From positions 1 through 18,145 of the forward strand of contig SGPM01000449.1 in NCBI GenBank assembly GCA_004802725.1: 18,145 bases of DNA. Reading direction: 5' to 3'. This stretch comes from Antrodiella citrinella (lineage: Eukaryota > Basidiomycota > Agaricomycetes > Polyporales > Steccherinaceae). The notes beneath the pieces are model-generated. The model made no database searches. It worked only from the letters and a program-made list of their open reading frames with translations, and was not told where the DNA came from. The translations under genes were made by a program, and so were the position numbers. Below are positions 1,341 to 18,145 of the stretch, in pieces (position 1 is the first letter of the stretch; each line of letters begins with the position of its first letter).

Positions 1341-1357
1341 TAGGTTAGGTTAGGTTA
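1341..1357 (+). repeat. Interstitial telomere tract, TTAGG orientation
   Basis: The sequence TAGG TTAGG TTAGG TTA (17 bp, about 3.4 units) begins exactly where the truncated gene fragment ends. It is in the opposite orientation to the terminal tract, so the 1.2-kb fragment between them is bracketed by outward-facing telomere repeats. This short tract could mark a healed break, a fusion of telomeric ends, or a junction produced during assembly. Confidence 0.8.
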
Positions 1358-1502
1358 TGAGAGATGCCAGGATGACCGTAGGACTTGAGCCCAGAAAAAT
1401 ACACAGGACAGAGGTGGGATACGAGACACGTCGGCCACAGGACACACCGTAGGATGGGTACTGTTGAATTGTGGTCTGAACACTTTCCATGAGCAAGGCA
1501 TG
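1358..1502. other. Subtelomeric spacer with no recognised feature
   Basis: Between the interstitial telomere tract and the inverted-repeat array I see no credible gene, RNA or repeat. Open frames crossing it continue into the repeat array and have no coding character. Confidence 0.5.
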
Positions 1503-1849
1503 GGCGTCTGACTGCCTGCCCAGCTGTCTCCTTCCAGGAGCGAGACATGGCTGGGGAACGTTGGGCGTCTGACGAGCTGCCCAACCGTCTCCTTCCAGGA
1601 GCGAGACATGGCTGGGANNGTTGGCAGCGTTGGGGCGTCTGCCCCAACCGTCTCCTTGACGGTTGGGCAGGCAGTCAGACGCCCAACGCCGCCCGACCGT
1701 GTCTCGCTCCGGAAGGAGACGTTGGCGCTTGTCAGACGCCCAACGCTGCCCAACCGTGTCTCGCTCCTGGAAGGAGACGGCTGGGCAGGCAGTCAGACGC
1801 CCAACGCTGCCCAGCAGTGTCTCGCTCCTGGAAGGAGACGGTTGGGCAG
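1503..1849. repeat. Inverted array of ~60-bp palindrome-containing units
   Basis: Two units on the left (palindromes at 1526-1546 and 1587-1607, 61 bp apart) face units in reverse orientation on the right (1701-1720, 1758-1778 and 1819-1839). The segment 1503-1546 matches the reverse complement of 1758-1801 at 43 of 44 positions by hand count. The segment 1577-1607 matches the reverse complement of 1819-1849 at all 31. Each unit has an imperfect 21-bp palindrome with core CGCTCCTGGAAGG or its complement, related to the 17-bp palindrome found elsewhere in the window. The centre (about 1620-1680) is irregular and includes two undetermined bases. Confidence 0.85.
1618..1619. other. Two undetermined bases (NN) inside the inverted-repeat array
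   Basis: The Ns lie just after the second left-arm unit, close to the turn of the inverted repeat. Hairpin-forming DNA often stalls polymerases and breaks assemblies, so the length and order of the array centre should not be trusted. Confidence 0.95.
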
Positions 1850-1897
1850 GGACAATAATTGGCAGGTCATGAGCCGCACAAAGATGGGTGGTGGACA

Positions 1898-1994
1898 GTC
1901 ACTCCAGGAGCGACGCCCTTGTGGTGGATGTGATGGTAAGGAATCACACATGTGATGAAACCGCAGCCAAGCAAAGTGTCGCTCCAGGAGCGAC
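1898..1994. repeat. Two copies of the 17-bp palindrome, 3' side of helicase A
   Basis: The copy at 1978-1994 is a perfect GTCGCTCC-A-GGAGCGAC. The copy at 1898-1914 has one change in the left arm (GTCACTCC). Both are in the non-coding stretch between the inverted array and the helicase A stop codon. Confidence 0.9.
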
Positions 1995-2178
1995 CACTTA
2001 CACTACGCATTGCCAGGGGAGCATGAAGATATATTTACAAACCAGAAATGTACAATGTCCATAGGGAATCGAGATAGCGTACACAAACAATTCAGGGAGG
2101 GGGTTGGGAGTCGGAGTAGGAGTATTGTCCATGATATCAACAGAAAAAAAAAGAATTCAAACAGCGGGGTACGAGAGT

Positions 2179-2234
2179 AAGTCCAAGAATCTACAACTAC
2201 AAGGTCAAGTCCAAGAATGTACAAGTACAAGGTC
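2179..2234. repeat. 28-bp tandem duplication downstream of helicase A
   Basis: Units 2179-2206 and 2207-2234 are directly adjacent and differ at two positions. Each starts AAGTCCAAGAAT and ends TACAAGGTC. They lie about 115 bp past the helicase A stop codon, probably in or just past its 3' untranslated region. The rest of 1995-2349 shows no feature I can name. Confidence 0.85.
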
Positions 2235-2349
2235 ATAAAAGTCGTGAGTACGCAGCAATTCTACGTCGTAAGAATGTTCGAATGTGTATGGATGTAAAAA
2301 AAACGCAACGACGGAGCGGACGGGGACCAAAACGACACGATGAGCCCAA

Positions 2350-5300
2350 CTACCTAGTGGACTTCTGCATGGAAGCCTTCCTCGGCATTCTTCGGTTGGC
2401 GATGGGGATGAAGTCCTGAAAGTCGTCGTCGTCATCGCCGTCTCGGCGACGCTGTTGGCCCTTGGTCATCTTCTGTGCCGCCCGCTTGGCCTGTCGCTTC
2501 TTGGCGCGCGACGCCTTCGAAGGAGACTTGGGCGAGGTGTCCGAGGGGTCCCGCTGTCGCTTACGACTCGATCCCGCCTCATCAGGGGAGAGATCCGACA
2601 AGTCCGATGACTCCGCAGTTGGTGTAACAGGGTGAGGAGCAGGTTGGGGCGGCGATGACATGTGGGCGTCGGGACCACCGTCGGGCACAGGCGTTGCCAA
2701 GCGGTTGGGAGACATGTCCATCGGCTCGGCGTGTGAACCACTGCCCGATGCCATTGCACCTCCCTGGGTCGATGGCGCGTCTTCTTCCGACTCGACGGTG
2801 GCAGCAGACTTACCCTTGCCTTTGCCGCGCTTCGAACCGCCTTTGGCTTTGGCTTTGGCTTTGCCTTTGGCTGGCTCAGGCTCGGCATCTCCATCCTCCG
2901 GGGCGAACGCTTGCAAGTTCTCGGGCAAGTCCTCAATCATGCCGGAATACATCGCTTCTGCAGTGGAACAGTCAATATGTGGCATATTGTCGACGAACTT
3001 AGTACGTACGGACGGCAGGTGTCGCCTCAGCGAAAGCCTTGGCAACCGACAGCTTGTTGAACGACATGTTGTTGAGGAACACGTCGGGCGACTTGTCCCC
3101 AACCAGCCTGTAGACGACGACGTCTTTGACCTGTGGAAAGCGTTGGACGCGGCCAATCAACTGTTCGTCTTCCAGCGCGGACCAAAGCATATCCTGTTAC
3201 AATATCAGCAGTGTAACAGGACATCAAATGAAAACAGCTTACCAGGACGATGATGACGCANGCCGATGCCAAGTTCAAACCCATGATACCCACGGACGAG
3301 AGTATCATCACACGCGGTCCGTCCCGATCAGCGTCGTTGAATGCCTTGATCGCCTTCTTGCGACCGTCGAGGCTGATGCTCCCATTCACGACCACGTACT
3401 TGATGCCGTGCAAGAACAAAACCTATTGTCCGCTTCAGCAGCTGCGCATTAGGCCGATAAATTGTGTTTACCTGTCCAATGAATGCGTTGTTGACGGGGA
3501 ACGCCGAGTACAAGACGATCTTGTCGGGTCCCAAGGGAACACCCATCAAGTCGACGGCAGGCCGTGGATTGGCGTTCTCCGAGAAGATATAGCCGTCGTC
3601 CTCGGTGTCGTAGTCCATGAAGGGCTGGTTGTCTGCTTGCAGGTGATGTTCGCACAGGGCGAGCACTGCGTCCAGCTTCCTCGAGGGCAGCGCCTCCCAT
3701 TCATCTAAGGTCATGGGGATCTTAGCACCATCCAACGCGAATTGCGAGTGTACCAATGCCTGCCGAAGGTTGAAATAAAAGCTCTGTGAACGAGGATTAG
3801 TTTGTCATCACAACGAGCTGTGAGACTGTCGCTCCCGGAGCGACGGCGACGCAGCAACAGTCAGCCTTCGCCTGACTCAGAGCTTCGCCGTACGTGTCGC
3901 TCCAGGAGCGACCGCTCTGGCAAGATGATCAGGCGCCGAGTGACTGCCTGCACCGGTCGCTCCAGGAGCGACTGATCAGGCGATGTGATCAGGCGCTGAG
4001 TGACTGCCTGCGACGGTCGCTCCAGGAGCGACCACGAGAACACCCAAGCACAATAACAAAAACTTACCCTTGAGTACCCGTCACGCTTTGCCCCGGCTTC
4101 GATGGAAGCGTACTCGGCGTCGTACAACGTCATCAGGAAGATCTTCTCCGTGTACGGCCGCAAGTCGATGATGTAGTTGCCGTCGATGTCGCGAGAAGCC
4201 TGAGTGCGTCGAATAACGAGGCCCGTGAACTCCTTGCGTAAGACCTGCGTCCACTTCACGTTGACCGCGAGACCCTCGCTGAATGCAGCAGCCTCGCCTC
4301 CTGCCACCGCAGAGCGCGCCAAGATCGTCGAGTACTCTTGTTTTCGGCGATCTTTCGTTTCCGCCTTGCTGATCTCCCTCTCAGCTTGTCCGCGCAACCG
4401 AATGTTCTTTGGATCCTTCACCCAGGTAATTCGTAGCATGTAGGCCACGTTCCACACATCCTGCCTTGTTATCAGCAACAATGTCTGGAATGCTGAATTG
4501 AAACGTACCATAATACGACTGTTCAGGGGTGTGGCCGACATCCCGCACGTAACCTCACTTTTCATGCTGAGGTACGACAGCGACTTGAACTTGGCCCCCT
4601 TGTTGCGCGCGAGGTGAATCTCATCGATTGCGGTGAACGTGAAATCCCAGTCCAGAATGCTGAATTGGCGGTCGGCGGTCGACGCGTTGGTCTTGGATAG
4701 TCCAAGCACAGGGTTGTTCGGCGGGCACTCCACTTCAACGTGGTCGGAGGCAATCGCCTGAAGAAACCGTCAGTGGGTTAATTAGTACCATACAACGTTA
4801 CAGTACTCACACTGAGTCGGGCAAGAATGATTCGGCGTCCCTCCGCCTGCTTGAGCTCGGGATCGTGATACGCGTCGTAGAAGGTGCGGCCACGGGTGCC
4901 GGCTGATTGCGTATACGGGAAGATGTCGAAGGCCCCTTTCCTGAGAAATCGGCGCAGCTCCCCCATCATCTGGTCCTCCAGGTTGTTCGGGACGACGATG
5001 AGGTTGGGCAAGTCTGGGATATTTCCCTCCTTGCCCTGCCACTTCTTGCCCGCTACGCCGATGTCAGTTCGGTATCGCATCTTGCAGACAAAAACTCACT
5101 AAATTCTCCCGGGAAGTCGCCGTTTTCGTCGTACGCGTCGCGGTACACGGCCAGCATTGCAATCACTCCGATCACTTGGAGGGTCTTCCCAATACCCACT
5201 GAATCCATGAGGAGGATCGGTTTACCTTCGAAAGAGTTTCGGAGCATCTTCAGGATGCCGACGAGCTGATGCCACCTCAACTTGATCGGACGGATGGAAG

Positions 5301-6591
5301 CGTCCGGCGGAGGATTGTTGAACCAGTCGGCATGGTCCACAACGTTGTGAACTCCTTCCGTGTCGTAGACTTCGGGCATGCCGGGGATTCCGTGCCCCTC
5401 CACCAGACCGAGAGCAGCGTACAGCTGTGAAACGTTCATATTGGCAAACTCTTCGGTACCCTCCTCCCACTTATCGTCGAGCTCGTAACCCTGCGGGGCG
5501 TCATTCGCGGCAGCGTCCTCGATGTCCTGGACGGTCACGGCCAGAGCCGCGGCGATCTCATCGTCGATCGTGCTCTGGTCCTTCGTCATCTGTGCAATCG
5601 CCAGGCGCAAAGGTTTCGGAATCCCTGAGTCATGGTCAGCTTGAATAGGAGCATTGTACCATGTCATTGACTCACGTTTCATAGCCTCTGCATCCTTCTT
5701 CAACGCCCAGGAAACATCCTTCAGCCGCTCCACTCGCCTATCGTACGCCTCCCGTGTCGCGGTGTTGCCTACCGCGATGAGGTCGACGATGTGCCTGTTC
5801 AAGTCCCGGATGAACGCCTTCACAGTCTTGACATCAACGTCGTCTATGTGCTCAGCAAAGTCTACGCAAAAAGGTCAGTGGTTAGATCGTATCGAGCGTA
5901 TTGTGACTTACCCCGCCAGCGTTCTTCCAGCTTCTCGTCCGCCGCTCTCACCCTCTTGTCCGCCTTCCTGTACGATGCAACGATACGCTCCCACTCGATT
6001 TTGAAGAGTCGGCCGAGGTACTCCTTCACTGCGGGTTGGACGAATTGGGAATTGTTACCCACCAGGACACCCCGCCCGAACACCCGCAGCGCGATAACGG
6101 GGGCACGGGGAGTCCATGGCAAGCCCTCATTGAAGTCGGGTACCTGAGGGATTGTGAGCGCAATCACGGCTTCTAATTTACGACACACTCACCGTAGTAC
6201 CATCCATGCTCAGCCAATCCGACAACTGGTTCAGCTCGTACTCGGTGATGCACTGTTTGAGCACCTGACCTACGTTCCACACCTTCCACTTGTCGGTAAG
6301 CCATTTCTTCAGCAGTGCCCGAGCCTCCTTGTGATCGTCGTTGGCCGACGTCGTGCCGAACTTGATCTCTCCCGTCGTCAGCTCGCAGAACGCCTTGAAG
6401 TACGCTTTGACCAGGTTGATTTGCGCCGCCTTGTACCCATGCGTGCGGTCGCGGAGAGGGACGTCGTCCTCGGGGGTGTACATCCATAATGGACCGTGCT
6501 CGTCGGTCGCCTCTCGCCACTCCTCGCAAGCCCACGGATTGAAAACTTTGAGCAACGCCATGAAAGACGTTGTGAGAGTGTGGGACGGCAT
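2350..6591 (-). CDS. SNF2-type helicase/translocase, subtelomeric copy A (11 exons, 1169 aa)
   Basis: The exons are 6591-6193, 6143-5912, 5861-5676, 5624-5100, 5052-4811, 4757-4509, 4460-4068, 3783-3472, 3422-3243, 3193-3010 and 2957-2350. All junctions keep frame and match copy B. Helicase motifs in order are: Q-like LRWHQLVGILKM before motif I; Walker A DSVGIGKT (Lys about 419); Ia LIVVPNNL; II DEIH (573-576); III SATP (602-605); IV KIVLYSAFP; V SSVGIMGLNL (about 888-897); VI QLIGRVQRFPQ (917-927). This order and the spacing of the two lobes indicate an SNF2-family, DNA-dependent ATPase, presumably nuclear. About 400 residues of unrecognised sequence precede motif I. The C-terminal tail (from about 968) is disordered, with GKAKAKAK-type, Ser/Pro-rich, basic and DDDDDF segments. 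Motif II is DEIH rather than DEAH or DEGH, and motif VI has Gln where His is usual. The start MPSHTL is shared with copy B. Catalytic residues are intact, so activity is plausible but unproven. Confidence 0.88.
3261..3261. other. Single undetermined base in helicase A exon 9
   Basis: The N is the third base of a GCN codon on the coding (minus) strand. All four possibilities encode Ala, so the protein reads NLASACVIIVL regardless, just after motif V. It does not damage the gene model. Confidence 0.95.
3784..4067 (-). repeat. Intron 7 of helicase A, expanded to 284 bp by four palindromes
   Basis: All other introns of this gene are 47-53 bp. This one holds palindromes at 3828-3844, 3896-3912, 3956-3972 and 4016-4032. 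The last three are exactly 60 bp apart, and the sequence between them is also repeated (GATCAGGCG and GAGTGACTGCCTGC blocks), so 3896-4015 is a two-unit tandem repeat. The splice sites are GTAAGT on the minus strand at 4067-4062 and CAG ending at 3784. If the intron were retained, the frame would run about 69 codons before a stop, losing the second helicase lobe. Confidence 0.88.
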
Positions 6592-6747
6592 TTTGGTAGT
6601 GGAAGCTATACACCATCAATGAATATCCTGCCTTACTCTTATATCTTACTATGATATGAAATTGCTCCATCAATTGGAAATCATGTCGGAATCGTGAAGA
6701 ACAATCAGTGGCACAAATGTCAAGAATTACGGTGGCTTATTGTAGCA

Positions 6748-6810
6748 GATGCGTTCTAGCACGCCGCGTGCTGTCGATGGTGGCGGCGATGCATTCTAGT
6801 ACGCCTCATG
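6748..6810. repeat. Imperfect 23-bp direct repeat upstream of helicase A
   Basis: Segments 6748-6770 and 6788-6810 match at 19 of 23 positions by hand count, 40 bp apart. The shared frame is GATGC-TTCTAG-ACGCC. It could be a duplicated protein-binding site or decay of an older tandem unit. Confidence 0.5.
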
Positions 6811-6870
6811 GCAGCTCATCTTACCCGATCCGGAGCGGGGTATAATCAGCATGAGGCTTGCTGTCCGGCA

Positions 6871-7129
6871 GTCGCTCCCGGAGCGACAGACAGAGACACG
6901 CACGCTAATCACGTGATCGTGGACGCACACACAGCGTCTCCCCCACGCATGTGTCCATAAGCGCCCCGAAACGCGCTGGCTCTGTAGTCGCTCCAGGAGC
7001 GACAGGTCTTGCGTCCGCATCCAACCTCATTTTTGTGGGATACTGCGTCGCTCCATCATGGTCACCGGCTTCTTTCATCCGGTATAACATGCCTCTCGTC
7101 TCGTCCCTCAGCATCGCTCTTCGAGCGAC
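6871..7129. repeat. Two 17-bp palindromes plus a variant, upstream of helicase A
   Basis: Perfect copies are at 6871-6887 (centre C) and 6987-7003 (centre A). A looser copy, ATCGCTCTTCGAGCGAC, lies at 7113-7129, with a three-base TTC centre flanked by six-base arms. All lie 280-540 bp upstream of the helicase A start, between the two minus-strand genes. Confidence 0.85.
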
Positions 7130-7209
7130 AATTCCTTTCGCTCATTAACATTCTCAGCCCATTCACAACTGCAGTACTCGATTCAACAATTGCGTCCACT
7201 CAGCATAAA

Positions 7210-9857
7210 TCAACCCTCAGCTATATCTTCATCCTCCTCATCCCTGTCCGCCCTCTCTCCTCCCACCTTCACCTGTGCGTGCTTTCTGAAGACTAACACA
7301 ACGCTGACCTCCTTCGCAGTGCCAGATGGGTACCAAATCGCTCCAGCTCCGGCCGATTTAGTCGTCTTCCACATACGATCGCTCTCTGTTCTCGGCATCC
7401 AAAGTAATGTATCGAACTCCTTCTTGAGTCGCCGACGGACCTTCGCGATGTCATTTGGCCGGAGTCTCGCTAGCAACCAGACCCATTGGCCGAAATAACG
7501 CGCCTTCTTGAATCCTTGAAGGCGTGTCACATCCAACGGTACCTGCGAGGGAAAGAGACGATCGAAGTTCGCGTCCCACGGCGTCCTCTCCATGCCAGTG
7601 CCTGCGAACGAGCTTCCCCCTCCAAAAATGACGTGTGCGTGGGGGAACACTCCAAAAAGATCCGCAGTTCGGAAGGTACTATGGCGGACCTCCCTTCGAC
7701 GATCGGCATCCAACAGACAGTACGAATTGTCCTGCCTATATCTCCTGTTCGGACTGAGTGATATCAGGTCGTTTGGAAACTGCGTCCATATATTTGCCAA
7801 AATCGTTTCCAATCCGCCGTGTTCCTCGTCTTCCTCGTCGCCTTCCGCAATCATCGGTACATCGTCTCCTGCCATCGTGGCCAATGGTTGTAAGACGATC
7901 TCGGCCAATCCCCACTCCACAATCGACTCGTCATCCACTTCGTCCCTCAGTGTTGCGATATCTCCCGTCATTCCGGTACGTCGATTGTTCGTCCTGGTCG
8001 GATTTGTACGAGTTCCCCCTGTCTCCGCTCGACCCGTCGCCACGAACAGCTGCTCGACCGCTGTCCACGTCCCTAGCCTCATCATGGATGCAAGCATCTG
8101 TAAATCAGATCGATGTGACCCGGACATGCGCAGTATCCCGCACCGGTCCTGGCGTATGCTGTCAATGAAGTACAGGCCCCGATAGTATAGATCGCGATCG
8201 GGAGCGTCCTCCTCGAGGGCGGCGGCGGAGCGCGTAATATAGGACTCGTGACGGCCTTCTCGAGGACGGTATATGAGGCCGTTGAATATGTACAGCGTAA
8301 TCAGGCCAAGTGTGAGGGTCTGAGACCATGCCCGCGGGAGCCCCGGGTTCTGGAGGTGATTCAAAAACACCTCCACACATGCCTGCGCGCGATAGGCTTT
8401 GAACACCCTGTCATGTTTGAATTTAAATGTGGTCCGGGGGAGAAGACTGTGTTACTTACCACCACGTCTTCGTCGGGAACGCCACCATCGTGTCGTCGAT
8501 GAACTGACGGGAAAGTTTGTAATGAGTCTTGTTGACGGACAGCAGCGGGACGCGAATCTCGAACCGTGTGGCTCCGTCGAACCCAGTTTGTTCGCTGTTG
8601 ACACCTGCGCAATCAAAGAAAGTATCCCGGGTCGTCTCTACACTCCTCGAGAGGCGCTCTAGACGAGCAGGACCGACGTCGGTGTATCGACGTCGCTCGA
8701 AGTCGCCTTGGTGCAGTTGGTACGTCGCCGCCTTGTCCGTGGTGTACACATTTATGTATAGCACACCCCGATTCAGGCCCAACGTCCCGGGGTGCGACCG
8801 AAAACCTCCCAATTCCTTGAGTTGAGCGCACAGATCCACGCTCGTCTTATGCCTGCTCCGCATTAAAGCACGGGCTTCGTCGTCGTCGCAGCCCAAAGCG
8901 CGCTGGACGACTTTGTAATGCGCATCCGTTTTCCACAACAGGACTCGCTGTGGCCAGCGGACTTCGATAGCCACGTCGACCATCCAGTCTCCGAAATTGA
9001 GACGAGTAGGATCCAACACGTCGCAGACCTTATCAAACGCCGCCTCCCGGTCCACATTGTCCCTCGGGTGGTGTCGTGTTGCGCCCTTCACCCCACGAAT
9101 CTCGTGCCCGAAGAAGAAGTTGTTGAATTTCGGAATCAACGCCATTTTGGTCACCAGTGCCGTCTCGAACAGCGGAATCGACTCCAACGGGATGTCGGTA
9201 CTACTGAAATGCAGCTGGGAGTTATGGTCCCTGCTACGTCTGTACACAGCTTCGTAGGACGGCAGCCAATGGACAGTGCCACCAATGACTACCTCCTCAA
9301 CAGCAGGCCGCAGACACTGCTCGTAGAATTTCTTGAGGAGATCGGTCGGCACGGTAGGCTCCCCACTCCATCCCGAGCTGTTCGCCTCGGGACAAAAGAT
9401 ACGGGTCACATGTCTGCCTCCGAATTTGAAGAAAGCGAAGTTCGGTATCTTTGACAACTCAACCGCGATGTGACTGCCGTTCTGAGTCCATGTTATCTTC
9501 TACCCTGTGAGAGCGAGCAATCACGGCACTTACTGGGTTGAGCACTGGTTGCGTGATATGACTGTTTTTCTTCAATGTTTCCGAGAATGGCGCAATGGGG
9601 AAAATAGAGAGTGGTACCTTGAATGGCAGAGTCTGGGTCACACCTATGATGGAGTCTATGTCTCGAGAGAACTCGAGTTCGTCATGTATGATGGGAGATG
9701 CACCTTGCAGCGCATTTACCGCGTACTGCTGTACGTCGCCGTTATCGTCGTTGGCTTCACCTGAAAGCACAAACGAAAGGAAGTCTCCCGTGTTGTCTTC
9801 GTAAAGGCGTGACGCCGTCGTCGCAAATTGCCTCAACGAAAGCTGGTGAAGAGCCAT
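7210..9857 (-). CDS. Protein of unknown function, 847 aa, three exons
   Basis: The exons are 9857-9534, 9481-8460 and 8407-7210. Both introns are 52 bp with GTAAGT donors and CAG acceptors, and the frame is continuous (324 + 1022 + 1198 nt including the stop). The start ATG at 9857 has a good context (GTCATGG) and a TATA-like element 31 bp upstream. I do not recognise the family. The second exon is rich in aromatic and charged residues (for example IPNFAFFKFGGRH just after the first junction, and FNNFFFGHEIRG). The third has a hydrophobic stretch (LTLGLITLYIFNGLIY, about 480-495) that could be a membrane or buried segment, an acidic patch (GDEEDEEHGG, about 638-647) and an acidic end (DEEDEDIAEG). 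No signal peptide, zinc finger or nuclease motif is evident. Its position next to helicase A, on the same strand, suggests shared ancestry or function of the locus, but this is only inference. Confidence 0.78.
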
Positions 9858-10087
9858 GACTGGCAGCAGGATAAGGTTCGAGGAAGAGTATAACGAGTGC
9901 TCAGACCTAAACTGCTCTCCATCATTACACCCTAATGCATGTCCGCCTCACTGCTGACACGTTTACTCACATGTGGTGCCACCCAGACCCATAGGCCGGC
10001 GCATTTTTTCTTGCATCACGACAAATTGACCTCGAGGCGATTGCTATATATGTCCGAGTCACTGCGTTGCGAATCTCTGAGATGGCA
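9858..10087. promoter_or_regulatory. Divergent promoter region at the centre of the locus
   Basis: These 230 bp separate the start codons of the minus-strand 847-aa gene and the plus-strand 498-aa gene. A minus-strand TTATAC (9888-9893) lies 31 bp before the first start, and a plus-strand TATATAT (10045-10051) lies 37 bp before the second. Unlike the promoters of both helicases, it contains no copy of the 17-bp palindrome. Confidence 0.6.
10045..10051 (+). promoter_or_regulatory. TATA box of the 498-aa proline-rich gene
   Basis: TATATAT lies 37 bp upstream of the chosen ATG at 10088. Its position supports that start over the upstream ATG at 9939, which reads through sequence of no coding character. 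Confidence 0.5.
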
Positions 10088-11745
10088 ATGTCTTTCCCCA
10101 ATCTCGCAGACGAGCCTCCGCTGTTCAGGTTTTATACCCAGTCACGCACACACTACGTCGAAGCTGATGTTGAAAGTGAGCTCCATTGACATCTATTCAT
10201 GTCCATCTCTGATTCGGCGTGGCACAGATCCACCTGCGGAACAGACATGTCGGTTCGGCATTCATGTGCGCGTTCTTCGTGATCTTGTCACTCAAATGGC
10301 AGAAATTGGTGAACATGATTACCTCCTCCCAGTCCCGGCATTCAGTGGGTCACATCATCGCTTTTTATTGCCAGAAATTGACACGCTCTGCAGCAGGTGA
10401 CGAATTGCATGGATTGCTGCTCGAACGTATGCTGCGCACGATCCACGTACACCTACGTGCTCGTCCTCGGCTGTCTCGTCACTGGTGTATGCCTGTGGTT
10501 TTCAGGCTCGTCGGGGAGGCCATGCGAGTCATGGCTCGCATCCACCGTTCTCAGCCACACCTGTTTGCGAGACTTAACCGGTATTTGGCGTCCATTACAA
10601 CGGAGACCGATGAGCTTGTTAATCTTAGGTATGGGCTTGCGTTCTCGGGCTCAGGCATTATCGGCCCACCGTCTTCGGTAGGAAATTACTATCAACGGTT
10701 GTTGATTGTGATGCAACCTACCACGCCGAGGCAATCTGTGCAGAGCGTAGCAGTCGTTGCGCCACCGGTCCGTGTCCTCATCACGACGAACATCCACTAC
10801 GGTGGGACCGATGAGCATACTCCTGTGTCCGCCGGTGAAGACGATAACGTAGGATCGCAATTGCTCGGTGCTCCCGTTTCTCTGCAGAGGGTACCGACAT
10901 CAACAGAGCTAATTGTGGCTCAGCACGCTGCTGCCGTTCATGACCCGCCTCCCAGGGCTTCCCGATCTCCCTCGGGTGCCCCGCCTCCCCCGCCTCCCCC
11001 GCCTGCCTTGCCTCCCCCTTCGCATTCTCCTGCAAGATCATTGCAGGCACCACGGAATCACAAGTTCAGCTTCGTAGCACCACTCGCGCCCCGGAATCAG
11101 CCGACACAGCGGTCAAGAGCTTCACCGTCACCTATGCGCTCTAGCAAGCACCACGGTCGCAAACGTGCCGCTTCCAATACTCATCCAGCCAGCGAACAGC
11201 GTAGCCGTCGTGCCCGTCACAGCCAAAATCAGTTTCGTCAACGAGCTCAGCTACCTGACGTCGGATCTCTGCCGTCCGAAGACGATTCATATGGCCCGTT
11301 CAATCCTGCTCTCACCGGAAGTCGCCGCCTTCCCACCATCAAAGGTCAAGCCCATCACACACCGGATCCGCCATCCGACGATAAGGAGGAGGTGCCCGTA
11401 TATCAAAACGTGCCTTCGACGGTCGCTGCGAACGCATTCCGATTCACAGCCACGCCTGCTCCAGGTCTCCTTGATTCACCGGTCGATGGGTCCACCCCGA
11501 CGCCGCCGCTCCCAGACACGGAGTATCCCGATTCCGAGGACGGACACTTGTGGTCCAAGTCGGACGCAGATGAGACCCCTCCCGACTCGGAAGAGGAGCT
11601 TCGTCCGGATGATTTCTTCACTGACTATGTCGGATATAAGAGACGAATGGCCATGGGCAGTACCAGTCAGCCGGTCAAGCCATCGAGGCAAGTGAACCCC
11701 GCCCCCAGATTGGCGGCATCGCAGAAAGGCAAGAGCAAAGCTTGA
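10088..11745 (+). CDS. Proline-rich, mostly disordered protein of unknown function, 498 aa, three exons
   Basis: The exons are 10088-10175, 10228-10396 and 10506-11745, separated by introns of 52 and 109 bp. The spliced start reads MSFPNLADEPPLFRFYTQ and continues in frame through ENPPAEQTCRFGIHVRVL, HDYLLPVPAF and RFLLPEIDTLCSRLVGEAM. The first ~170 residues look folded. The rest is low complexity: a run of eight prolines near 245-252, basic RKR/RSRRAR patches that could be nuclear localisation signals, and an acidic Ser/Asp/Glu-rich end. I do not recognise the family. The gene is transcribed away from the 847-aa gene and towards helicase B. A 53-bp stretch at 10630-10682 (GTATGG..GTAG) could be read as another intron, but the unspliced frame stays open to the end, so I left it in. 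The first ATG and the 109-bp intron are the weakest parts of the model. Confidence 0.68.
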
Positions 11746-11792
11746 GTATATTTGTTAACGCGTAGTCTGTCGAAAATTGAATGCTCGAACCG

Positions 11793-12054
11793 GTCGCTCC
11801 GAGAGCGTGATCAAAATATATCAGTTGAAATGTTGCATCCTCGCATTGATCGCTCCGAGAGCGACATGCAGAGATCTCCGTTCATCATACAACAAAGTGT
11901 CATCGGATCGCTCCTGGAGCGACTCCTCGCAACAACCCAACACTCTGATGACTGCCGGTGTCATGGGATCGCTCCTGGAGCGACTCCTCGCAACAACCCA
12001 TCCCTCTTTTGAACACTTTTGTGCCGCCAAGCCCCGCGTCGCTCCTGGAGCGAT
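11793..12054. repeat. Cluster of five palindromes upstream of helicase B
   Basis: Copies start at 11793 (degenerate), 11849 (one interior change), 11907, 11968 and 12038, so spacing is 56, 58, 61 and 70 bp. The copies at 11907 and 11968 share a longer block, including CTCCTCGCAACAACCCA immediately after, showing a recent 61-bp duplication. The centre base of the three good copies is T. The cluster fills most of the 479 bp between the stop of the 498-aa gene (11745) and the helicase B start. Nothing else is evident there apart from a TATA box. Confidence 0.88.
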
Positions 12055-12175
12055 CAATGTTTCACAATCAACGTCCTCATCAATCCATTCATTTCCTGAA
12101 GCCTCTTATTTGCTAGTTTATTTCTGTACGCCTCATGTATGGCACGTTTCTTCGCCCGACCCCATGCAAGAACGT

Positions 12176-12181
12176 TATAAA
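12176..12181 (+). promoter_or_regulatory. TATA box of helicase B
   Basis: TATAAA lies 44 bp upstream of the helicase B start codon (12225), closely matching the TATA-to-ATG spacing seen for helicase A. It supports the MPSHTL start shared by both paralogues. Confidence 0.6.
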
Positions 12182-12224
12182 GACTGGGCAGCCAGTGTCA
12201 GTGTCACTATCGCTTGCCTTGTCC

Positions 12225-15200
12225 ATGCCTTCCCACACCCTGCTTTCCGCTCATCTTGGCCTGTTTAAGAAGTATCCTGGCATATGGGGATGGCCGCGGT
12301 GGGTCGAGGTGACTCGCGGTGAACTGCCTGTCTGGCAATGTACTGCGCAGTCGGGGTCTCATGGGTACGGACAAGCCGACATCGACAAAGCGAAGGCATT
12401 CGTCGACGCTTTCTGTAATCTCGGTGACGCCCAACAGATCGAGTTCGTTTCGCGCAAGAAAGACCAGCATGTCGAAGGACGCGAAGTGGTGAAGAAATGG
12501 TTCGCCGCCGTCTGGAAGTCTTGGACGGTGAACAAAGAAATCAAGGACCTTGTCGTCGAGGCTGAAGTGAACAGACTCCCTGCTTGGTTTAGCGACGGGA
12601 CTCATGACTCGGTATGTTTGCTGTCCAACGTCAAGCTATATCTTTGCTAATCTGCCCCCCTAGACACCATTTCCATCCTCAGAGATGGTATTCCAATGGG
12701 CGCCGCATGCCGGTGCACTGTCCTACCGTCTATTCGGTGAGGATGGCATGATGTCGGACTTCCCCAAAGTGGACGTGCACGTCTATCTTACTCGTGTTAT
12801 GCACATTGAGTGGGAGGCCACCGCAAAGCGTTGGCGATACACGACAGTGAAAGTCCTGAAGGCTGACGAGGAACTCACGCAAAGATGGGCCTGTAAGTGT
12901 TATCGTTAGTACATGGGCTTCGTGCTCACTTGTCACGTGTTAGCATTCGAAACTGCTGGAATGGTGATATCTCAGACCGACGCGAGGGTCTTCATCCGTA
13001 GAATGAATGCTCACGTCCTCAACCTACTGTCAGTGGGTGACAAGCAGTCACGCGAACTATACCAAGAACGCGTGGCCCTGCTCAAGGACATCCTCGTCAC
13101 GCTGCGGAAAGATGCCGCAGTCTCTCGTACGTTCACGAGTTTGTTGTCCTAACACATGTGCTGAGTGATTATGTATCAGGAATACCGAAAGCTTTCAAAG
13201 CGATCATCGAGCAATTCACGACGGACGAGTCTAAAATCGAAGGCGAGATTCAAGCAGCCTTGGCAGTGACTCCGGATGACATTCATGCGGTCCCGGAGAC
13301 TATCCCGCACACGGATTATGCTGTCGGTGATTGGAAGGATGGTGTCGAGGAGTATTCTCAAGTCACCCGCTCGCAGCTGTTAGCCAATCTTGGTGTTGAC
13401 CCTAACGGTCTGATTGTCGGGTGTAACCCAATGATGGACCGCACTGGCGATCGGAACCCTTGGTTGCATCCTGAGTACTTCACTAATCCTCCACCTGACG
13501 CAGGCCTTGCACCGGTCGAGTTCAAATGGCACCAGCTCGTCGGCATTCTAAAAATGGTTACTAACGGGTTCGACCGTAAACCGGTGTTACTCATGGATGG
13601 CGTTGGTATTGGAAAGACTTTACAGATCATTGGCGTCATCGCCATCCTGGCATACTATCGCACGTGGTACAAAACGCACGGCAAGTTTCCCGGAATATTC
13701 AGTAAGTGTCTTTGCACTCTTATCGTCACGCCCTCAATTCACGGGACCATCAGTCTCGCGGCGGTGGCCTGACAGTCCCGACGGGAACATCCCGGACAAC
13801 CCATTTCTGATTGTTGTCCCAAACAACCTTGAGGGTCAATTCACGAACGAGCTCTACAGGTTCCTCAAACCAGAAGCATTCGACATCTTGCCGTACACGC
13901 AGACCGCCTCCGCTCGTGGCACTAAGTTCCACGACGAGCTGTGGAGTGCCTGTAAATTGGACCCTGGGCGTAGGATAATCGTCGCCCGTCTCAGCGTAAG
14001 ATGCGTACCGTCGTTAGCAGTAACATGTCACTTATGTTCGTTCATCTAGGCATTGGCGTCGGACAGCTCGCAGCTGAGTTTCAGGCCGGATGACCCTGTC
14101 CTCAGTCTGAAAATGACAACTGAAAAACCCAGACAATCGATACTGAGTTGGAAGTTTACGTTCACAGCCATCGACGAAATCCACGGAGCACGCAATCTCG
14201 GTACAAAGTATTCTGTCCTTGCTTGGGTGTGTCGTAACTCTTCGATGGTAGCTGGGGTGACTGCCACTCCACTCACCACCCGACTTCTTGTAAGCCTACA
14301 CTCGATCAAGGCTTGTTCAACGCTGACTCATCGATCAGGACCTGTGGAATATTGGACGCATGATATATATTCCCTTCGTGAGACAGATAGACAATGTCGC
14401 GCTATGCAAGCAGGCTGATTCGGAAATCAAAGCTGCTGAACGAGCAGATCGCAAAAACGACCCTGACGGTGCCACCCTCGTTCGTCTCTCCGAAGAAGAT
14501 CCTTCCCACTCCGAGACGTTCCAAGTGACGCTTGGATGGACGATGAAATTGCGAGCCGAATACGACGGTATGGTCATCCGACGGACGCAGCAGTCATTGG
14601 ACATTGACGGACGTCCCATCACCGATCTCAATCCCTACGTAGATCGGACATTGAACATGCTGCTGTATCCGGCCGAATACGACCGACTTGAACAATCAGC
14701 CATCAGCGGAAAACATTCGAACGTAAGTGATCTATCCAGTATATTACCTTCTCTCGTGTAGTCGCTCCGGGAGCGACCCTCGCCACCGACCAACAAGCGC
14801 CCACTTTCGCCGCCTCACAGCTGTCGCTCCCGGAGCGACTGCTCATACACACAACTCCTTCTGACGATGCACGCCTGCAGACATTTTATTTGCGGTTCCG
14901 ACAGCAGCTCACCCATCCGAGCTTCAACGATGTGGACCATGTGCAGCCCAAGTCGCTGAGCGAATGGGAAGCAAATCCGTCACGCAAACTCGACGCCCTC
15001 GCTCAGATCGCACAACACCATCTTCTCGCTGATAATCAACCCGTCCTTCATTACGACGACAACACGCACTGCCTGGTCCCGGACACAGAAGTACCAGCTC
15101 CACGTCCAAGCGAAGACACGCTCCACAATCCTCTCGGGCCCGACAAAATCATTATTTACTCGTCCTTCCCAGGAAAGTCGGAATTCATCATCACGGTACG

Positions 15201-16493
15201 TTTACGCATTCGAATAGAAGTAACATACTGACCTGTTAATAGCTGTTAAACCTTCACGGCATCAAGCATACTTCCTTAAATGGAACTATGTCTTTATCAG
15301 AACGTCAACACGACGTTGCAGAGTTCAAAGCCTCTGGCCGCGATGGCCCACGCGTTTTGGTTATGTCTGCATTGGGCATTGTGGGGTTGAACTTGGCTTG
15401 TGCCAATTACGTGATATGCGTGGTGAGTTTCATACCCAAGTCAGTAACTTTATCTCATCGTCATTGTAGGATACGTTGTGGTCGGGTCTAGAGGACGAAC
15501 AGTTGATAGGGAGAGCACACCGGTTCCCGCAGCCGAAGCAGGTCGTCGTATACCGCCTAGTTGCGAACAACACCCAAGACGTCTTCTTGAATAACGTCTC
15601 ATTCAGTAAATGGGTTATCCACCTGGCATTCATGAAAGCCACACCGGCCGTTCGTGAGTTAAAACTGTCCTTTTTGCAATGCCCTATCTGATCTCGCTGT
15701 AGGTGCTGCATTCCAAAACATCAAGGACGATATCACGCCCGAAATGAACGCCGAATTGGGCATCGAGGACGATGTTGAGGGAGAGACAACCCAGACCAAG
15801 ACCACAACCAAAGCCCGAGCGAAACGTGCTCCGAAGGCCGCTCCGAAGGCCGCTCCGAAGGCCAAAGCTACTTTGAAAGGCAAGGCTGATGCCCCCAATT
15901 TGCGCGAAACGGCTCCCGTACTACAAGCCGCTTCCCCTGCAATCTTGCCACCGGAAGTGGCTACGTTCACTCACGACCGCACCACTCAGCCATCATCGAC
16001 AACAGTTTCCGAACGACTTCCTTCTCCACCTCGACGCGCCGTGTCTCCCATGACATTCACTGACTTTGACGAAACTTTCCCCGTCGATCTCAGTAATCTC
16101 TCCAGTCCAGTCTCGCACATCAGTTCGCTCCCGCCCAGTGCGCCTCCCAGTCCAGAGGCTCCATCGCTATCTCTCGCTCCCAGTGCCAGTGGTTCAACGG
16201 CAACCAACGCGATAAGTGACGACGAAGAGAGCGGCACGGAGGATAGCGACGGAGGTCGCACTCATTCGAAGAAGCGACCCCGCACTTCGGAAGCGAGCCT
16301 AAACCCAGCTGCTCGTAAGACGAGCAAGACGACGTCCTCTATCAGCCAGATGATCAAGAGCAAGCCAAAGGGCAGCAAGATTGCGGGATCCGACTCGGAT
16401 CCAGAACTCCCGAGCGCAGGTTCGATGGCGATGATGTTCAGAGGAGGCAAAGGCAGCAAAGGCAAAGCTCCGGTCAATCAGCGGCGGCGTTAG
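12225..16493 (+). CDS. SNF2-type helicase/translocase, subtelomeric copy B (11 exons, 1218 aa)
   Basis: The exons are 12225-12611, 12664-12892, 12944-13126, 13180-13701, 13754-13995, 14050-14289, 14339-14722, 14881-15195, 15243-15422, 15470-15653 and 15703-16493. All ten introns fall at the same positions and phases as in copy A, and exons 5, 9 and 10 have identical lengths. Motifs: FKWHQLVGILKM; Walker A DGVGIGKT (Lys about 412); LIVVPNNL; DEIH (563-566); TATP (592-595); KIIIYSSFP; SALGIVGLNL; QLIGRAHRFPQ with the canonical His (about 911). It is therefore a DNA-dependent ATPase of the SNF2 family by motif order. Around motif VI, 33 of 45 residues match copy A by hand count, but the N-terminal third is much more diverged, so this is an old duplication. 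The tail is longer than in A, with an Ala-Pro-Lys repeat, Ser/Pro-rich sequence and a KKRPR nuclear-signal-like patch. No break or missing catalytic residue is seen. Confidence 0.9.
14723..14880 (+). repeat. Intron 7 of helicase B, expanded to 158 bp by two palindromes
   Basis: This is the only intron of the gene longer than 54 bp. It carries perfect palindromes at 14761-14777 (centre G) and 14823-14839 (centre C), 62 bp apart. The donor is GTAAGT and the acceptor CTGCAG. It occupies exactly the same position and phase as the palindrome-filled intron of helicase A. Confidence 0.9.
15828..15863 (+). repeat. Three tandem 12-bp units in the helicase B tail
   Basis: GCTCCGAAGGCC is repeated three times without change and encodes Ala-Pro-Lys-Ala each time. 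It lies in the basic, disordered tail. Copy A has a comparable but different Lys/Ala/Gly repeat at the equivalent place, so the tails evolve by short tandem expansion. Confidence 0.9.
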
Positions 16494-16579
16494 GTTCCAA
16501 CTCGTGTTCATACCTTATACGAATGTGTCAATTTTCGAATTGTTGGGGACATTATTATAATACGTAGACTGTAGTAGTG

Positions 16580-17099
16580 GTCACTCCACGAGCGACTCTG
16601 ACCACACGACATATATATACCGTTGTCTGCTCGACAATGTCCGACGGAACATTGTTCGACGCCATTAGAACTGACGCAACGAGTGTTACGGATGTTGAGG
16701 TTGGTGCAGGTGACCAGTGGTTACTCACTATGAATCGAAGTTTTCCCGATTGAGTGTAGTCCAAGTACTATATGTCCGTCATAAACGAATCGCTCCCGGA
16801 GCGATTGCAGAGCAGAGAACACACTGAGCAGCCAATGATCAGCACGGGCACATTGGTCGCTCCAAGAGCGAGCGCAGGCATGTGTCGAAGATTCGCCTCG
16901 ACGGACCGTAATCCCGCACGGCAAACTCATCGAAAACACCTGTAAACCTTGCCAGCAAGGTGAAGGAACAACAGTCGCTCCTGGAGCGACGTTCCGACAG
17001 GGCATCTGTCCTTCAGCAGAGAGTGAGATTACAACCTGTCATCAAGTGTAATGAGTCAACGAAAACATATTTCAAAGTTCTGATCGCTCCAGGAGCGAC
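16580..17099. repeat. Five palindromes downstream of helicase B
   Basis: Copies lie at 16580-16596 (degenerate), 16789-16805, 16856-16872 (degenerate), 16974-16990 (perfect, centre T) and 17083-17099 (one end base changed). The copy at 16789 reads ATCGCTCC-C-GGAGCGAT: both outer bases differ from the consensus in a way that preserves pairing. Confidence 0.88.
16637..16753 (+). CDS. Possible small ORF or remnant first exon, 38 codons
   Basis: An ATG at 16637 opens a 38-codon frame starting MSDGTLFDAIRTDATSVTDV and ending RSFPD before TGA. A TATATATA run (16612-16619) lies about 20 bp upstream, and a degenerate palindrome lies at 16580. The amino-acid composition looks protein-like and a possible donor (GCAG followed by GTGACC) occurs inside it, so it could be the first exon of a decayed or spliced gene. 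I recognise no family. The start codon also lies inside an imperfect hairpin (TCGACAATGT facing ACATTGTTCGA, 16631-16659), so the reading frame may be coincidental. Confidence 0.3.
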   Translation: MSDGTLFDAIRTDATSVTDVEVGAGDQWLLTMNRSFPD

Positions 17100-18145
17100 C
17101 ACTGACACAGCACAGTATTAATACCAGTGCGGCATATTGTGTATAATGATTATGACATAAATATACTATTGAAGGTAGAACGAGTCGTACCCGAGGAGGG
17201 AGACGCGTTACTGAGAAAGTAGTACCATGATTGCTTAGAACAAGATACAAACGACGCATGTACTGTACGATATCTACGGGCGCTAATCGCTGTAATCGGA
17301 ACATCTTGCTTGTACTTGTTAAGACCGTGCGGAGGGTCCTGAAAATCCCAAACGGAGATAGGTGTGGCACATCGGGGGCATACCGGAGGTTCCGACAAGG
17401 GTAGACGGGGCAATGCGGGGCAGGGCCGGAGTCCATGCAGGGAGCGGGGAGGAAGGTCGGGGAGGATCGCTGGGCAACCGTCGGACAAGCCAGACGTCGC
17501 AACAATGGAGGGCGAGGGAGAGAAAGGAGTGACAGCGGTCGGGTGTAAGGCCGGAGGTCGCGAACACCACAGAGATGGGTGACGCGCTATTCAGCTCAAG
17601 TGTAAGGAGTGTGGGGGAGGGTCAGAAGGCCTAAGAAGATAGCACGGAATAACAACATTAATTTACGAACTAAGTAATTATGTACATCCAGGTGACCCTT
17701 TTATACTACTACTTGAGTAAGTGGCTACAGAATGCGGTACGGAAATGGAGCACGCCTATAACAGTCACCCTCTTTAAAAGTGAACCGATTTGCACGTTAC
17801 AGCCAACTCACATACTGAAAGTGTCTGTCGGGTGTACAGATTGTTTGTAAGAGTAAACCGACTTACATGAGTCATCCAACTAGGGCAGGGCACAAGTATA
17901 CCTATGGGTACTTTTGGGTCTACCTCCTACTCTTACCTGCCAAAATCCCTACTCTTGGTCACAGGTATTGTTATATTCGTGCAGACGCAGACTTACCGCC
18001 CGGACCCCTCCGAGCCTGGCCTCCGAGGTCCACCAGGACACCTCCGCGATAGCATCCGTTCTGACTTAGGAACACGTTGAGCTCACGGGTTTTATGCCGT
18101 GATGATCTACTGAGCTTTCCCGTTGAGCTCACGTTTTCTTACCAG
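17100..18145. other. Intergenic DNA without a convincing gene
   Basis: No frame here shows conserved motifs, plausible splice structure or palindromes. A G-rich, purine-rich patch spans about 17400-17470. From about 17640 to 17900 the composition is more AT-rich. A 13-bp direct repeat, CGTTGAGCTCACG, occurs at 18075-18087 and 18121-18133 near the right edge and may belong to a feature beyond the window. No tRNA-like or rRNA-like sequence was recognised. Confidence 0.5.

Follow-up and report, generated by a model that had tools for sequence, protein, structure and literature searches.

Why should a short palindrome recur about twenty times at one place in a fungal genome, and what could it serve there? 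The question is raised by an 18,145-nucleotide stretch of DNA from the wood-decay polypore Antrodiella citrinella (the window), in which copies of a 17-base palindrome, RTCGCTCCNGGAGCGAY, lie around and inside two genes of SNF2-family ATPases, named here SNF2A and SNF2B, with two further genes, CENA and CENB, between them. The window is the whole of one contig, C389, in an assembly of 30,003,328 bases and 602 contigs, and the sequence analysis covers this one genome. The reading that we favour, at a probability of about 0.5, is that the palindromes would form an array, private to this locus, at which a putative two-fold symmetric (dimeric) protein binds double-stranded DNA.

A palindrome confined to one locus

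When up to three mismatches were allowed, the window was found to hold 21 sites, 15 of which are exact to RTCGCTCCNGGAGCGAY; 200 dinucleotide shuffles of the window gave a mean of 0.35 sites and a maximum of 3. The total of about 21, its division into 15 and 6, and the positions given in an earlier note on this DNA are thereby borne out. None of the 21 sites overlaps an exon under the four gene models, as that note had also stated. Twelve control loci of the host, amounting to 40,269 bases with some overlap, contained 8 palindromes whose arms measured at least 7 bases, five of them being one sequence, versus 17 in the window.

The restriction of the site to this locus is evident across the genome. 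All 15 exact copies in the 30.0 Mb are located in C389, which makes up 0.06% of the assembly, and the reversed-letter control gives 1. At up to two mismatches there are 57 sites, 20 in C389 and 37 elsewhere (control 28), and one single-mismatch site lies outside, on C88. The core TCGCTCNNNGAGCGA (TCGCTC-N3-GAGCGA) occurs 23 times, 18 times in C389 and 5 times elsewhere, where the control also gives 5. These genome-wide repeat counts may be lower bounds, which would not produce the contrast between C389 and the rest. An even spread over intergenic DNA, which the earlier note had named as contrary to the association that it proposed, is thus not what is seen. The array is real, and its restriction to one locus makes it a more striking finding than the note had conveyed.

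This restriction also bears on two other explanations. A freely mobile short repeat, one of three natures suggested for the palindrome at the outset, is disfavoured because no exact copy was found outside C389 across 30 Mb. The sites might instead belong to an ordinary host transcription factor that controls these genes by chance, since each SNF2 gene is bordered by sites on both sides, the upstream side included. However, such a factor would be expected to have targets elsewhere, where the core occurs only at the control count (5 versus 5), and each SNF2 gene has sites clustered in one intron and in its 3' flank as well; we consider this explanation quite unlikely.

The sites form six groups. 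Downstream of SNF2A, the palindrome at 1898..1914 reads GTCACTCC-A-GGAGCGAC with one mismatch and that at 1978..1994 is exact. Four exact copies lie in SNF2A intron 6 (3828..3844, 3896..3912, 3956..3972 and 4016..4032). Upstream of SNF2A, the copies at 6871..6887 and 6987..7003 are exact, and the copy at 7113..7129 has lost its inner pair with the core intact. Five sites lie upstream of SNF2B: a degenerate one with three mismatches (11793..11809), one whose inner pair is lost and whose core is intact (11849..11865), and three exact to the R/Y pattern (11907..11923, 11968..11984, which is a tandem copy of the 11907 unit, and 12038..12054). Two exact copies are found in SNF2B intron 7 (14761..14777 and 14823..14839). 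Downstream of SNF2B there are a degenerate site with two mismatches (16580..16596), a site with its outer pair changed on both sides to A...T (16789..16805), another that has lost the inner pair and kept the core (16856..16872), an exact copy (16974..16990) and one exact to the R/Y pattern (17083..17099).

Within 1851-17316, six of the seven non-coding stretches longer than 100 nt hold sites (2, 4, 3, 5, 2 and 5), whichever gene adjoins, and the seven together hold the 21 sites in 3,085 nt. The sole empty one is the divergent promoter of CENA and CENB (9858..10081, 224 bp). It had been pointed out that no copy occurs in 7210-11745, which is true, but the weight of this absence is small. The block consists of nearly all exon, two short introns per gene and the shared promoter, in which about 1.5 sites are expected at the mean density and the chance of finding none is roughly 0.2. 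The empty centre is therefore weak evidence and proves little.

Symmetry, constraint and spacing

Departures from the consensus are unevenly distributed over the site. Among 19 changes, the outermost pair received 10, the innermost pair 6 and the six core pairs, which make up 75% of the positions, only 3 (simulated p about 2e-5); after four tandem-copy sites were dropped, leaving 17, p was 1.4e-4. The centre triplet is CNG in 16 of the 21 sites, CGA in two, and CAA, CAC and TTC in one each. The palindromes are therefore two-fold symmetric with constraint on the core of each half-site, so that of the three natures first suggested (dimeric binding site, hairpin, mobile repeat) the first fits the pattern of change, whereas the last is disfavoured, as described above.

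The surroundings of the sites are far less alike. In the 25 nt on each side, mean agreement was 13.5 of 50 positions, with values well above this confined to a few tandem copies that adjoin each other; likeness is thus a property of the 17-mers and not of the DNA between them, with no clear flank sequence in common beyond neighbouring tandem copies. Nine of the 15 gaps within a non-coding stretch measure 54-72 bp, as against 1.9 under random placement (p 1e-4), and 13 of the 15 are included when gaps of 108-144 bp are counted too, which was reached in 0 of 20,000 random placements; the smallest gap is 56. A lone left arm, GTCGCTCC, at 7047..7054, 60 bp after 6987 and 66 bp before 7113, occupies one of the doubled gaps and is possibly a decayed site. 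It is one of seven matches added by a scan at up to five mismatches, of which four lie in a neighbouring satellite and two in exons.

A pitch near 60 bp is also what a functionless local minisatellite would give, in which a unit of about 60 bp with a palindromic heart was spread by slippage and unequal exchange inside this region of the chromosome and is now decaying. Such a locally amplified repeat is the main rival to the binding-site array, although we regard it as doubtful. Clear tandem copies do occur within the array (3896/3956 and 11907/11968 are plain duplicates), and tandem duplication clearly contributed to it. However, most units have near-identical 17-mers but unrelated DNA between them, and the even decay expected of such a repeat does not agree with the sparing of the core. 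The pattern would look like that of a conserved dimeric site repeated at a rough pitch, unlike the even decay of a 60-bp repeat.

The source of such a minisatellite would perhaps be the neighbouring satellite at 1353..1850, a host dispersed repeat with a tandem unit of about 61 bp and copies on C484 and C27. It has the same pitch as the array, and its imperfect palindrome has the 11-mer TCGCTCCTGGA in common with the sites. In addition, the left flanks of the SNF2A-intron sites 3956 and 4016 share the 11-mer TGACTGCCTGC with it (p 0.007 and 0.32, respectively, so that only the former is significant). On the other hand, the flank likeness to the satellite is not significant over the 21 sites (combined p 0.11), and derivation of the palindromes from it was rejected on that ground; its copies on C484 and C27 are without the exact palindrome. 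A common origin of the satellite and the palindromes is possible but unproven.

The module and the intron shared by its helicase genes

The four genes are arranged in the order SNF2A - CENA - CENB - SNF2B in a module of roughly 15 kb. SNF2A (2350..6591, minus strand) has 10 exons and encodes 1,186 amino acids; the public A. citrinella model EUX98_g8376 is a slightly different model of it, 97% identical. Its paralogue SNF2B (12225..16493, plus strand) has 11 exons, encodes 1,218 amino acids and is 43% identical to SNF2A. In a Pfam scan, which covered SNF2A, the protein matched PF00176 (SNF2-rel_dom) with 37.5 bits at a cut-off of 24.9 and PF00271 (Helicase_C) with 38.9 bits at a cut-off of 23.5, and SNF2B was assigned by its 43% identity. 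Both proteins keep GIGKT, DEIH, SATPL or TATPL, and EDEQLIGR, which we take to be helicase motifs I, II, III and VI. Agaricomycete SNF2-family proteins called 'P-loop containing NTP hydrolase' (Pisolithus, Boletus, Suillus, Lactarius) belong to the SNF2A family, being 24-33% identical to SNF2A and alignable to it from the N-terminus on.

Nine intron positions are common to the two genes, eight of them sharing an alignment column and the first being displaced by two columns, and SNF2B has one intron more. SNF2A intron 6 (3784..4067, minus strand) measures 284 nt and contains four palindromes, while the other eight introns of the gene measure 47-53 nt; the public model likewise splices out the 284-nt intron. 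SNF2B intron 7 (14723..14880, plus strand) measures 158 nt and contains two palindromes, while the other nine measure 47-54 nt, and it occupies the same column and phase as SNF2A intron 6. Outside the palindrome array, each of these enlarged introns has exactly 79 nt.

The occurrence of palindromes in one and the same intron of SNF2A and SNF2B strengthens the link to the helicases that the earlier note had drawn from the distribution alone. However, a tie to the helicases is inseparable from a tie to the locus, because the assembly outside C389 holds only two weak SNF2A matches and because six of the seven longer non-coding stretches hold sites.

The enlarged introns also bear on an explanation at the level of RNA, in which the palindromes form hairpins or long-range stems that aid the splicing of long introns or the formation of transcript ends. 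The folding of both introns greatly exceeds that of shuffles (z −7.0 and −4.2), and the fold pairs the palindromes with each other, leaving 79 nt of intron outside. Any set of palindromes, however, folds in this manner by construction. In gene-sense RNA, the SNF2A-side sites have two wobbles and no broken pair, but the SNF2B-side sites have eight broken pairs, counted over the outer seven pairs of the sites, and one wobble, which is not expected under selection on base pairing; only the site at 16789 has a change on both sides. Some sites, at distances of as much as about 600 nt beyond a stop codon, may lie outside the transcript. On the whole, the pair changes do not favour selection on RNA pairing, and this explanation is highly improbable.

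The module looks single copy and appears to lie within the host's own genome. The CENA protein, the SNF2A protein and the DNA of 6592-12224 were searched against the assembly, and the matches were confined to the module except for two weak ones of SNF2A (on C101 and C379, to the C-terminal part of the helicase, 29-34% identity); neither the CENA protein nor the central DNA matched anything outside C389. The single-copy state is indicated by the fact that the middle matches only itself, apart from the SNF2A/SNF2B pair and these two weak matches.

On the right, the module is bounded by two host dispersed repeats (17317-17752 and 17969-18145, within 17317..18145). The first has nine other long copies among the matches listed, at 78-86% identity, and the second is found at about 29 other places among the matches listed, at 84-92%; the contig ends inside the latter, which is the likely cause of the assembly break. 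At the left contig end, repeat pieces are 78-100% identical to sequences on C516, C484, C27, C264 and C390, and at the right end at least sixty pieces recur on other contigs at 70-92% (40 of 52 candidates scored). Contamination or a separate plasmid was rejected as the principal explanation, because both contig ends are repeats present on other contigs of the assembly. When the edges 1340-2349 and 16494-17400 were compared, the matches listed were a few words of 9-11 bases and palindromes whose matching flank extended to about 25 nt at most; terminal inverted repeats or a target duplication, absent among them, were rejected.

Other features of the left end are as follows. Positions 1-125, at the contig end, are a (CTAAC)n array, a five-base repeat of the TTAGG type, and its patterns of 20 and 30 bases have no match on any other contig of the assembly. 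A 21-base pattern of the TTAGGG type has no match on any contig; related Polyporales are reported with TTAGGG telomeres in excerpts of PMC11783313, PMC8865532 and PMC10817607. A subtelomeric position of the locus is likely, but unproven. At 413-1340 there is a dispersed repeat that has long open frames on the minus strand; it matches C516 at 84% identity and, in part, C264 (98%) and C390 (88%). A short TTAGGTTAGG is inverted at 1345.

A candidate reader and its possible action

In the favoured reading, a dimer would recognise the half-site TCGCTC twice, with three free bases between the halves, at many sites about 60 bp apart. These predicted sites would lie in almost all of the longer non-coding stretches of the module, and selection would be keeping them. 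A site confined to the module would most likely have its reader encoded there as well, with CENA as the first candidate. Where sites are occupied, the surrounding chromatin or DNA would be the substrate of the two SNF2 ATPases, and the consequence would be either local control of the helicase genes or the copying or maintenance of the module.

Several points weigh against this proposal. The array is known from the sequence of a single genome. Because several units are tandem duplicates, the spacing and the likeness of the sites partly reflect shared descent, which the spacing test leaves in, and the gap bounds of that test were chosen after the gaps had been seen. The constraint test uses sites picked for their likeness to the pattern, a bias which the scan at up to five mismatches limits but does not remove. 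The presence of palindromes in the same intron of both paralogues could be a 1-in-9 coincidence. Finally, the flank likeness between SNF2A-side and SNF2B-side sites does not reach significance when the 216 comparisons are taken into account (p 0.001 for the best pair, 1978/16580), and homology of particular palindromes across the halves was rejected.

Plasmid iterons and phage operators are arrays of short two-fold symmetric sites that occur in several copies within one genetic unit. The palindromes resemble such operator-like dimer-site arrays in being short, two-fold symmetric, multicopy and private to one unit, with graded constraint on the half-site. Unlike them, the palindromes belong to a fungal nuclear genome, where introns and 3' flanks are among their positions and a spacing of about 60 bp is frequent. 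The LIMP palindromes of Lobosphaera (19 copies, in the excerpt of PMC4524435) and the palindromes of Fusarium mitochondria (in that of PMC7218506) are likewise short and recur within a single replicon in its non-coding DNA. They are, however, mitochondrial and of other sequence, whereas the present locus has introns of the spliceosomal type and host nuclear repeats on its contig.

CENA (7210..9857, minus strand; 847 amino acids, 3 exons) belongs to an unnamed family, in which the homologues with named species are from Agaricomycetes, and it shows a weak resemblance to the TBP-fold family Rep_trans (PF02486). Members of the CENA family are uncharacterised proteins with invariant motifs of the types R-x-E-x-R, D-x-(A/G)-x-E and Y-x-x-x-Y-T-T-D-K. 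CENB (10082..11745, plus strand; 520 amino acids, 3 exons) has no Pfam domain, and a word-based protein search in which 7,989 candidates were scored gave no homologue beyond the window itself. Its middle part is proline-rich.

The Rep_trans yardstick consisted of nine proteins, one of which was scanned with Pfam (Rep_trans, 69 bits); the other eight, which carry replication-protein annotations, were related to it by tblastn, and one pair among the nine is 78% identical. On the minus strand, four parts of CENA were compared with this family: codon D68 (9654..9656) with the first metal ligand, D46 of RepDE; D277-x-A279-x-E281 (8963..8977) with motif I, D-x-A-x-D; Y350...Y354...K358 (8732..8758) with motif III, which holds the catalytic Tyr and Lys; and R414-x-E416-x-R418 (8552..8566) with motif IV, R-x-E. 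The candidate metal acids, set against D46, D142 and E214 of RepDE, are kept in 8 of 8 aligned rows with the region, CENA included (D68), and in 12 of 12 (D277 and E416 alike), where the correspondence of D68 to D46 and D9 rests on the range starts and holds only if the ranges are gap-free. Y350, Y354 and K358 are invariant in the 11 rows with the region, with the spacing Y-x-x-x-K as against Y-x-K in RepDE. Two residues before D277 and Y354, CENA has M275 and N352 where Rep_trans has R140 and R189, although the alignment placement is uncertain.

Sequence profiles did not place CENA in Rep_trans. The PF02486 profile had no match in the genome at E values up to 10, while the Bacillus subtilis control matched, and Rep_trans is listed by Pfam for none of the 11 CENA homologues at an E value of 10. 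In the comparison of CENA with the Rep_trans profile, the hhalign probability was 0.1, which is not significant, and both control comparisons scored equally; the sole reported alignment, not significant either, sets motif I of CENA on motif I of Rep_trans.

Set beside the Rep_trans rolling-circle initiators as described in PMC4797284, CENA would share with them the suggested TBP-like fold and the order of most catalytic-type residues, and the module would share with their origins a palindromic, element-specific DNA site and cooperation with a helicase. CENA differs in having no sequence-level match, long insertions between the motifs and no counterpart of two conserved arginines (the alignment being uncertain), and the module differs in its eukaryotic host, in SNF2 instead of PcrA and in many dispersed sites instead of one origin. 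A replicon- or transposon-like module, in which CENA would be a Rep_trans-like nicking enzyme, the SNF2 proteins motors and the palindromes recognition or origin sites, is improbable. Slightly better odds, still low, are given to a nuclear replicon-like or domesticated mobile module in which CENA, as part of a so far unrecognised fungal branch of the TBP-fold Rep_trans endonucleases, would read the palindrome as a dimer and may nick it, with the two SNF2 ATPases as motors and, in other Agaricomycetes, a separate palindrome for each module of this kind; this overlaps the binding-site array, of which it is the boldest form. Among the titles and abstract openings of the open-licence literature there was no paper that dealt with the palindrome, with a locus of this kind or with a Rep_trans protein from a fungus.

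A site that is confined to one locus of a 30-Mb eukaryotic genome, and present there in about twenty copies, is a strong pointer to a self-contained protein–DNA system. The Rep_trans fold has been described as bacterial and recently as archaeal (in the excerpt of PMC13107129); if CENA were the reader and had this fold, the fold would reach the eukaryotic nucleus. If CENA is the reader of the palindromes, a hypothetical protein family of mushrooms gains a testable function.

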